A stretch of 49,591 bases of DNA from Sulfurospirillaceae bacterium (GTDB lineage: Bacteria > Campylobacterota > Campylobacteria > Campylobacterales > Sulfurospirillaceae): positions 1-49,591 of the forward strand of contig JAQUWL010000017.1 in assembly GCA_028692875.1 (NCBI GenBank). The letters are read 5' to 3'. The translations under genes and the position numbers were made by a program. This document shows positions 6,577 through 49,591 of this stretch, in pieces. Below the pieces are notes generated by a model. That model was given only the letters and a program-made list of their open reading frames with translations, did no database searches and was not told the origin of the DNA. Positions within the stretch are counted from its first letter, which is position 1. Each line of letters begins with the position of its first letter.

Positions 6577-6719
6577 TTTGCTGATATTGATGAGCTTGAT
6601 AAAGAAATGTCTGATTGACCGCAATGCAACAAATACCATATTATAGTTTATTTATGAAAAATCCTGTACAATACCTCCTAGAAACTAACCCTCAGTGCCA
6701 TATGTTATGGACTAATACA
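6577..6719 (+). pseudogene. Decayed 3' remnant of an IS transposase (DDE integrase type)
   Basis: The last 67 bp (6653-6719) match, inverted and with two mismatches, the IS end at 49466-49532. Translation gives ADIDELDKEMSD, then an in-frame TGA at 6616. After a net 7-base loss that changes frame it continues with KNPVQYLLETNPQCHMLW, the C-terminal end of a DDE integrase-core transposase. Nothing recognisable of the catalytic part remains upstream. The terminal TGTATTAG-type IS end stops 5 bases before the -35 box of the tRNA-Asn promoter. Confidence 0.85.
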
Positions 6720-6724
6720 ACTGC

Positions 6725-6753
6725 TTGACATATAAAGTATTTTTTACTATAAT
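6725..6753 (+). promoter_or_regulatory. Consensus sigma-70 promoter of tRNA-Asn
   Basis: A perfect -35 (TTGACA, 6725-6730), 17-bp spacer and perfect -10 (TATAAT, 6748-6753), with the mature tRNA beginning 25 bases after the -10. The same full-consensus architecture is seen before the tRNA-tuf cluster. Confidence 0.9.
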
Positions 6754-6778: not shown

Positions 6779-6853
<75 letters not shown>

Positions 6854-47787: not shown

Positions 47788-49275
47788 ATGAGTATACTCC
47801 AGACATTAAAAGAAAAAGCGAAAGACTATTCATTGCTTTATGTTGAAGACAATGAGAGTTTAAGAAATCAAGTTGAGAGGTTTTTGGCCAAATTTTTTAC
47901 CAATCTTTATGTGGCACAAGATGGCGAAGAGGGACTGCAACTCTACAAAAAAAATACTACTCAAATCGTTGTAACGGACATTAGAATGCCAAAGATGGAT
48001 GGCTTGCAGATGGCAAAACAGCTCAAAAAAATCAACCCAAAAGTTAAAATTATTGTAGCTTCAGCATTTGATGATAAAGAGTATTTGTATGATGCTATAA
48101 AAGCAGGAGCGTTTCGATATATCAAAAAACCTATTGCTGTTGAAAGTTTGAGTGAGATTTTACTTGAGTGCTTCGAGTTTATTTCATATGAAGAAAATAG
48201 TGAAATTTTTACACGCTATATGAAAGATATTTTTAATTATCAAGATAATTTATTGCTTCTGCTTGAAAACAAAAAGCCACTTATCGCCAATCAAAAGTTT
48301 TTTGAATTTTTTGATGTTAAGGATTTGAATGATTTTAATGCAAAACATGGAGAGTTTGGAAATGTTTTTTGCGAAGAAAGAGGGTTTATTTACAACAATG
48401 AAACAAGCTGGTATGAGCAAATTTTAAAAAACAAAGGAAAGCTTTTAAACGCTAAAATCAAAAAGAAAAATGGTGAGTTTGCCCATTTTGCACTAAAAGT
48501 AAAGCAGATACCAGAAGATAGAACAAAAATCATCTTATCATTAGATGATATTAGTGAGCTAGGACTTCTTAAATCAATATCAAATACAAATATTTTTGCC
48601 CCCAGAGATGAAAAGCTTCTTTTAAACCTTCTCAATTTTATAAGACTCAACGAAACTCCAATTAGACTTCACAACTACTATAAAGGTCTTAGTATTGCAA
48701 ACGAAGGCACAATAGAAGAGATGCAAGAAAATAAAATTCTTATCAAGACAAGCTATCTTCAACAAAAGGCAATTCGTTTTGAGGGGCTTTCTCTTTTGAG
48801 CTCTGAATTTTTGCCACACAATGTCGAATGTAATGGACTTGAGTTTGTGGATGAAGATAATGGGACAGCAAGTTTTAAAAAGATAAATTTTGTTATACAA
48901 AGCCAAATTGATAGAAAATATGTTCGAGTCAGACCAGAGGAAGGACATAAAGCCTTTTTGCATTATGGTGCTCAAAGATATGACTGTTCTGTGAGAGATA
49001 TAAGTATAAAAGCAGCCCGTTTGCGGTTTGAGACTCTTCCAGCAAGGATGAAGGTCGAAGACCTAGTAAAGGTTGATATTGCGTTGGGCGTTGGTTCTAA
49101 AAAGCTTATAATAAGAACAACAGGAAAAGTTTTTAGATTAGATGAAACCCCAAAAGATGCAACCGATGTTGTTGTGATGTTAGATTTGGGGGATAGTGTT
49201 TTGGAGGATTTGAGAGAGTATATTTCCAATAGACAAATTGAGTTAATCAAAGAGTTTAAAGTTTTGGATAAATAG
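47788..49275 (+). CDS. Response regulator with PAS-like middle and PilZ-like C-terminus
   Basis: A 495-residue cytosolic regulator. Residues 1 to about 125 are a CheY-like receiver: acidic pair E20-D21, phospho-acceptor D64 (VVTDIRMPKMDG), S92 and K114 (YIKKPI). Residues about 130-260 look PAS-like (LLLLENKKPLIANQKFFEFF, NGEFAHFALKVKQIPED). The C-terminal 120 residues resemble PilZ, with RKYVR as the c-di-GMP RxxxR motif and DISIKAARLRF in place of DxSxxG (the glycine is alanine). I chose ATG 47788 (GAGG upstream) over 47743. It is followed 8 bases later by a truncated membrane protein that may have been its partner sensor. Output probably concerns c-di-GMP signalling, by inference. Confidence 0.8.
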   Translation: MSILQTLKEKAKDYSLLYVEDNESLRNQVERFLAKFFTNLYVAQDGEEGLQLYKKNTTQIVVTDIRMPKMDGLQMAKQLKKINPKVKIIVASAFDDKEYLYDAIKAGAFRYIKKPIAVESLSEILLECFEFISYEENSEIFTRYMKDIFNYQDNLLLLLENKKPLIANQKFFEFFDVKDLNDFNAKHGEFGNVFCEERGFIYNNETSWYEQILKNKGKLLNAKIKKKNGEFAHFALKVKQIPEDRTKIILSLDDISELGLLKSISNTNIFAPRDEKLLLNLLNFIRLNETPIRLHNYYKGLSIANEGTIEEMQENKILIKTSYLQQKAIRFEGLSLLSSEFLPHNVECNGLEFVDEDNGTASFKKINFVIQSQIDRKYVRVRPEEGHKAFLHYGAQRYDCSVRDISIKAARLRFETLPARMKVEDLVKVDIALGVGSKKLIIRTTGKVFRLDETPKDATDVVVMLDLGDSVLEDLREYISNRQIELIKEFKVLDK

Positions 49276-49283
49276 GAAAACAG

Positions 49284-49493
49284 ATGAAAAAAAGGTCTAT
49301 TGCGGAAGTAAAAAGGTCTATTTATCGAATTGGGCTAGTTTTTTTTCTGACTCTATTTTTTGTGCTTTTATTGACAGCTGTTTATTTTCAAAACAATACA
49401 CTAGATAAATCAGAGAGCCAGTTTCATCAGTATATTGATGGATTTATAAAAAAAAGTCAAGAACATGTATTAGTCCATAACATATGGCACTGA
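49284..49493 (+). pseudogene. 5' fragment of a membrane sensor gene, interrupted by an IS
   Basis: It starts MKKRSIAEVKRSIYRIGLVF with a membrane helix (about residues 16-37), then a periplasmic-looking helix (QNNTLDKSESQFHQYIDGF). The native reading ends near 49465 (KKSQE); the last residues (VLVHNIWH) come from the IS end, and a TGA follows. The layout (short cytoplasmic tail, helix, periplasmic region) fits a histidine kinase, chemoreceptor or GGDEF protein, but the rest is missing. It begins 8 bases after the receiver-PilZ-like gene and was probably co-transcribed with it. Confidence 0.8.
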
Positions 49494-49591
49494 GGGTTAG
49501 TTTCTAGAAGGTATTGTACAGGAGTTTTCATATGTAAACCATGATGAGGGATTATGGTGTTGTAATCAATGAGCCAATCAGCCATTTTTTT
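49466..49591 (-). mobile_element. Insertion sequence end with transposase C-terminus (partial)
   Basis: The IS terminus TGTATTAGTCC begins at 49466. The minus strand from the window edge encodes MADWLIDYNTIIPHHGLHMK and continues TPVQYLLETNPQC to the end of the element. The DWLIDYNTxxPH pattern marks the C-terminal end of a DDE integrase-core transposase (IS3/IS481-like). The reading frame appears to run through the element's end, with its stop in the flanking DNA. It matches the relic at 6577-6719 in inverse orientation. The rest of the element is outside the window. Confidence 0.88.

Follow-up and report, generated by a model that had tools for sequence, protein, structure and literature searches.

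Right ends of IS481-like elements abut predicted promoter −35 boxes: target sites in Campylobacterales and a split sensor kinase gene in a Sulfurospirillaceae bacterium

Introduction

Promoter-directed insertion is known from TnGBS, ISLre2 and some ISKra4-group elements of the Mutator superfamily, which, in the sections of the source at hand, are described as inserting 13-17 bp upstream of the −35 box of sigma-A promoters (PMC3942029). ISAjo2-type elements, which belong to the IS1202 family, insert 5 bp from the XerC site of dif, according to the accessible portion of another report (PMC10132070). For the IS481 family, target duplications of 2-15 bp are given in the available text of PMC10045372; this text holds nothing on a promoter-directed target, and the available part of PMC9208149 contains no report of one. 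In a literature search that left most subscription papers outside, no report was found of IS481-like elements targeting promoters flush with the −35 box. What is known is promoter-directed insertion as such; what is new is its occurrence, at predicted promoters, in IS481-like elements that lie flush with the −35 box.

Here, an IS481-like element is described at the end of a 49,591-nt stretch of DNA from a Sulfurospirillaceae bacterium, called the window below, together with its relatives in other genomes. Judging from the target sites collected, the right end in this clade almost certainly lies, as a rule, exactly 5 bp upstream of a sigma-70-type −35 box and leaves the core promoter whole.

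A kinase gene split at the end of the window

The source genome (1.94 Mb, 44 contigs) includes the window as contig C22, and the end of the window is the contig end. Near this end lies the gene of a receiver-PilZ regulator (47788..49275, plus strand), which encodes 495 aa from ATG 47788 and matches Response_reg with 91.4 bits and PilZ with 24.7 bits (cut-off 22.5). Ten homologues of the protein were aligned; residues ~145-385, from receiver to PilZ, are conserved in 11 homologues and match no Pfam family above cut-off. The stop codon of this gene ends at 49275, and its downstream neighbour starts at 49284, after a gap of 8 nt. A sequence-only reading had described this neighbour as cut by an IS terminus at about 49465, beside the receiver-PilZ regulator, and both points hold. 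When the window is aligned with four more right ends from this genome, the sequence is shared up to ..GGACTAATACA and diverges beyond, which sets the exact boundary at 49465/49466.

The 5′ part of the cut gene comprises codons 1-60 and two bases of codon 61 (49284..49465, plus strand). The remnant frame runs on to 49493, and its 69 codons consist of host codons 1-60, codon 61 over the junction and a remainder from the IS. The idea that the frame represents an independent short gene, conserved in strains without the IS, was rejected because relatives have kinases at that place. The last five host bases, GAACA (49461..49465, plus strand), form the target duplication, whose second copy adjoins the opposite IS end, on contig C3. 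On the minus strand, 5 bp from the IS right end and antisense within the kinase gene, the −35-like target hexamer TTGACT (49455..49460) has no good −10 partner, the best having 3 mismatches at spacing 16-18. The IS right end itself fills the last 126 bp of the window (49466..49591, minus strand) and finishes with the minus-strand terminus ..TAATACA. It carries the C-terminal part of a transposase frame (49457..49591, minus strand), whose TGA stop (49459-49457) lies inside TTGACT and outside the IS. This fragment scores 23.0 bits with Pfam rve_3, below the cut-off of 26.5, while a longer 69-aa transposase copy on contig C11 has IS481 as its best model with 43 bits, far below the whole-protein cut-off of 224.

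A query of the genome with the kinase found beside the homologous receiver-PilZ gene in a relative (L035) identified the right-hand end of contig C3 (L052), where an open frame of ~776-777 aa enters from the contig end. The order there is IS left end, GAACA, kinase, and in the window it is kinase, GAACA, IS right end. Merging the halves at a single GAACA gives an open frame of 833 aa. Among the five right and six left ends of the genome, GAACA is common to C22 and C3 alone. Residues 32-467 of the joined protein, the junction included, align with the kinase of L036 at 24.5% identity; the first 61 aa of the kinase alone gave no convincing match to the kinases of relatives. The window half is linked to the C3 half by three features: GAACA present on both, a joined frame without internal stops and this alignment across the junction. 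Both items that the sequence-only reading proposed to look for beyond the window, the missing gene portion and the target duplication, are thus present at the right end of C3.

The C3 part contains dCache_3 (51.9 bits), PAS_9 (67.2 bits), HisKA (27.1 bits) and HATPase_c (60.6 bits), all four above cut-off in one frame, as in a dCache sensor histidine kinase, which agrees with the earlier suggestion that a signalling protein was lost. The 3′ end of the kinase gene overlaps by 4 nt a receiver-HD-GYP gene, the product of which also has a GGDEF match. The empty site would accordingly be a dCache-PAS histidine kinase gene between the receiver-PilZ and the receiver-HD-GYP genes. The exact 5-bp duplication and the 95-100% identity of the sister ends suggest that the loss of the kinase gene is recent. 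Taken alone, this inactivation of a kinase gene by an IS is unremarkable. The insertion may also silence the overlapping receiver-HD-GYP gene; the transposase runs antisense to the kinase gene, and expression of the downstream gene could therefore be reduced.

Long histidine kinases follow the receiver-PilZ gene in L034, L035 and L036; the kinase frame of L034 runs into an ambiguous stretch and its domain scan covers the first 679 codons. A kinase-like ORF adjoins the receiver-PilZ gene in 21 of the 39 relatives with an examinable next ORF, these 39 coming from 56 loci analysed out of 70 found. The kinase may be the input of the receiver-PilZ protein, a proposal to be read beside the 18 of 39 examined relatives that have no adjoining kinase. 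In about a dozen relatives (L059-L064, L070, L071, L080, L088, L090, L097 and others), a protein of ~250 aa replaces the kinase after the receiver-PilZ gene, often overlapping it.

The element and its transposase

Copies with both ends measure 1095-1105 bp and have the ends TGT/TGC...ACA. Their 5-bp flanks are identical in 17 of 25 cases, one base apart in one more and without match in seven; the duplication of 5 bp falls within the 2-15 bp of the IS481 family. Complete assembled copies were sought in the contigs of the source genome and none was found, and for this reason full transposases were taken from relatives. The transposase is a single ORF of ~352 aa. All five full transposases examined are above cut-off for rve (40-52 bits) and rve_3 (45-55 bits), and four of the five for HTH_28 and HTH_32, the one below being L226. 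The best NCBIfam family of all five is IS481 (NF033577) at 176-183 bits, short of its curated cut-off of 224, and the name IS481-like is used here for this reason. At E <= 0.01, the Pfam and NCBIfam matches of these five proteins are of the rve, IS481 or IS3 type only, with no Mutator-type family among them.

The transposase frame has no stop in the IS end and continues through the duplication. In 49 of the 79 cases, the third codon beyond the IS coincides with the TGA within TTGA, and the −35 box supplies the transposase stop.

At two loci, L168 and L225, an older right end is followed directly by a newer copy, and the same 5-bp copy lies between the two. From this arrangement the same bond was apparently hit twice in both, and one promoter may be hit repeatedly. 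In L218, the right terminus is doubled.

The clade is spread over seven families of the order, with Nitrosophilus labii (plasmid pHRV44) as one named host, and one betaproteobacterial plasmid; copies outside the phylum were sought in a plasmid collection. The latter copy, on a Sulfuricystis plasmid, is decayed, with 48% identity and internal stops, and is followed by AAGGC, TTGCAA, 17 nt and TAGAAT, in agreement with the promoter pattern.

Other copies in the source genome

The genome of the window has five right ends, on contigs C22, C3, C42, C11 and C38, each followed by 5 nt and then by a TTG-hexamer (in that order TTGACT, TTGACA, TTGCTT, TTGATT and TTGACA). A TATAAT-like hexamer stands 17-18 nt past the TTG-hexamer in four of them, the exception being the window's own. 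Besides C22 and C3, the contig ends of C11 and C2 form a second matching pair, sharing TATCA.

Among three further, diverged right ends, the same arrangement is found at the tRNA-Asn gene of the window and on C10, and is absent on C9. The copy in the window (6601..6719, plus strand, 81% match) is its second right end of this element type and is decayed. It is separated by ACTGC (6720..6724, plus strand) from a predicted promoter, TTGACA - 17 nt - TATAAT (6725..6753, plus strand), of a tRNA-Asn gene that starts near 6779. Neither another copy of ACTGC nor a left end was found for this right end. A right end in another genus of the same family (L228, G332:C222:3-125) is identical to that of the window IS over 41 aa; it lies upstream of a tRNA-Pro cluster and represents either a recent transfer or a misplaced contig.

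Target sites

The last 69 aa of the transposase were used to search 398 genomes of the order, and matches were obtained in 45. There were ~121 matches, 7 of them from the source genome itself; of the ~114 others, 75 were selected manually, and those omitted were mainly weak matches or fragments that stop short of the right end. With 8 ends of the source genome this gave 83 loci, 79 of which, from 23 genomes, had a recognisable right end (L192, L237, L238 and L239 were dropped for having none).

TTGACA with no more than one mismatch occurs exactly at offset 5 in 49 of the 79 right ends, 38 of these perfect; every other offset between 0 and 39 has it in 2 of the 79 at most. TATAAT, likewise with up to one mismatch, follows at spacing 16-18 in 63 of 79, at spacing 17 in 51 of those. 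In 300 dinucleotide shuffles, the −35 counts had a mean of 0.6 and a maximum of 4, and the −10 counts a mean of 4.5 and a maximum of 10. After the removal of similar flanks (n=66), the −35 is found in 37 and the −10 in 50. At least one site with no more than 2 mismatches in each hexamer is present in 19 of the 23 genomes. Sixteen of the 79 sites have no good −10, 18 have at least 3 mismatches in the −35, and L195, L202, L204, L223, L236 and L006 are plain misses.

The strongest position is the first T of TTGACA, with 1.54 bits. Among 17 clean copies, the left side showed no comparable motif, with no position above 0.74 bits. The proportion of sites with a matching −10 is 36/38, 9/11, 9/12, 7/10 and 2/8 for 0, 1, 2, 3 and at least 4 mismatches in the −35, respectively. 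As a background, 400 kb of one host genome gave a correctly spaced −10 match at 3-4% of positions, irrespective of how well the −35 matched. A good −10 is still present at 18 of 30 sites whose −35 has at least 2 mismatches; TTGAC as the sole signal was rejected on this ground. Both hexamers are thus selected, because −10 matches are far above this background even where the −35 is poor. When offset (0-11) and spacing (15-20) were both left free, 51 of 54 good pairs were at offset 5, with spacings of 15-20. The offset is constant and the spacing variable, and the element therefore measures from the −35.

The start of a tRNA gene lies within 200 nt of 23 of the 79 sites, and all 23 are among the 45 sites with two good hexamers. 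The control figure is 3 of 176 equally good strings, many of them surely not promoters, for which reason the excess over real promoters is smaller than these figures. In an Rfam scan of 40 of the 79 loci, RNase P RNA (L177, L197) and 16S rRNA (L174, L179, L183) were also found downstream.

The analysis was repeated on further genomes with a criterion fixed beforehand for the loci returned; four extra copies from genome G536 were added, with the end sought within 30 nt. A phylum-level search gave few new genomes and a family search around G327 gave more, while a family search around G042 had no matches in new genomes. Of 39 loci examined, 16 were dropped (15 without a recognisable end, and L303 with too short a flank) and 23 were counted, from which five rows were removed: the duplicate L162 (= L332), L151, L279 and L332 from genomes of the first search, and the already seen L247. 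The remaining 18 sites in 10 genomes agree with a promoter target. By hand count, the −35 has at most one mismatch in 8 of 18, the −10 at most one in 13 of 18, and both hexamers at most 2 in 13 of 18. The nine G536 copies have mostly weak −35 boxes and good −10 boxes.

Relation to described elements

The clade resembles TnGBS, ISLre2 and ISKra4-group elements in its fixed distance upstream of a promoter and, for most of them, in the right end facing the promoter, as far as the available sections of PMC3942029 describe them. In contrast to their distance of 13-17 bp, the insertion here is flush after the 5-bp duplication, and TTGACA (at most one mismatch) occurs at offsets 13-17 in at most 1 of 79 sites each. 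Their transposases are Mutator-like in the same text, whereas those studied here match rve and IS481 models. Membership in this promoter-targeting group was rejected on distance and transposase type, the orientation of the right end being shared.

With the ISAjo2 type, as presented in the accessible portion of PMC10132070, the clade has in common a fixed orientation, a 5-bp duplication and a position 5 bp from a protein-binding site. In that account, however, the target is dif, the length 1.5 kb and the transposase 441-457 aa, against promoter hexamers, 1095-1105 bp and ~352 aa here; on the size of the transposase, membership in IS1202 was rejected.

The rve core, the single gene, the TG..ACA ends and a duplication within 2-15 bp are shared with the IS481 family (NF033577; PMC10045372, available text). 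Unlike that family as described there, the clade scores below 224 bits, has 5-bp rather than the usual 6-bp duplications and has a promoter-directed target. IS481-family elements on Klebsiella plasmids (~41% identity) have a similar transposase length and oriented insertion; by eye, the copies L248-L250 have no promoter past the right end and lie beside hok genes. In all three, the left end is next to TCTCC just before hok-family genes; L334 is also annotated beside hok, and L333 (Enterobacter) is not. From these flanks, the Klebsiella relatives look like elements with another specific target.

Possible explanations of the target choice

Our inclination, by a small degree, is towards an account that takes the target preference, docking and the split kinase together. 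The transposase would dock on RNA polymerase-sigma70 seated at a promoter, from the side of sigma region 4, and the ends would be joined to the first bonds left accessible on the upstream side of the −35 element. The core promoter would survive and the host would be spared. In the window, the IS481-like element (~1.1 kb, 5-bp duplication) would have split the 833-aa kinase gene in codon 61 in an off-consensus event at the promoter-like antisense TTGACT. The likely outcome would be loss of the kinase, and perhaps of receiver-HD-GYP expression, altering c-di-GMP signalling by the operon. On its own, the proposition that this clade transposes onto promoter-bound RNA polymerase-sigma70, joining at the upstream edge of the −35 box, which then ends the transposase gene, seems to us evenly balanced between true and false.

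The HTH domains of the transposase might instead read promoter DNA directly, mainly the −35 hexamer and without a host protein, which we hold possible but rather doubtful. HTH_28 and HTH_32 are indeed recognized in most full transposases, the first T of TTGACA is the strongest position and the register is tied to the −35 and not to the −10. However, the −10, which lies 28-34 nt from the IS end, is matched at most sites, also at 18 of the 30 with a poor −35, and tRNA genes are over-represented among sites of equal hexamers. Taken together, the data on both hexamers, the register and the tRNA genes fit docking better than a reading of the −35 alone. A one-base register, with 49 of 79 sites at offset 5 and no more than 2 at any other offset up to 39, is also left unexplained by random insertion followed by selection for copies that spare promoters; insertion upstream of a promoter would plausibly be milder than insertion in genes, yet we consider this extremely improbable. 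Two doubts concern the window itself. An ordinary IS insertion, with nothing beyond the loss of one sensor gene, would suit an unremarkable knocked-out gene and a target with a poor −10, but is very unlikely in view of the target statistics of the clade and of the second window copy upstream of a tRNA promoter. An assembly artefact at a repeat as the origin of the split at 49466, with the kinase intact in the organism, could be suspected from the 44 contigs and from C22 and C3 both ending within a multi-copy repeat; two different IS ends are each beside GAACA, though, C11 and C2 likewise share TATCA and the joined frame is open, making an artefact highly improbable.

Significance

If docking on the promoter-bound polymerase is true, it would represent promoter-directed transposition with an origin independent of the Mutator-like elements and a base-exact register. 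It would also provide a testable link from the transcription machinery to target choice, for which Ty3, at polymerase III promoters in yeast, offers a comparison. Each insertion removes upstream regulatory DNA and keeps the core promoter, and could thereby alter the regulation of genes, those for tRNA and rRNA among them, while leaving them unbroken. The insertion sites would, in addition, mark sigma-70 promoters in bacteria in which few have been mapped.
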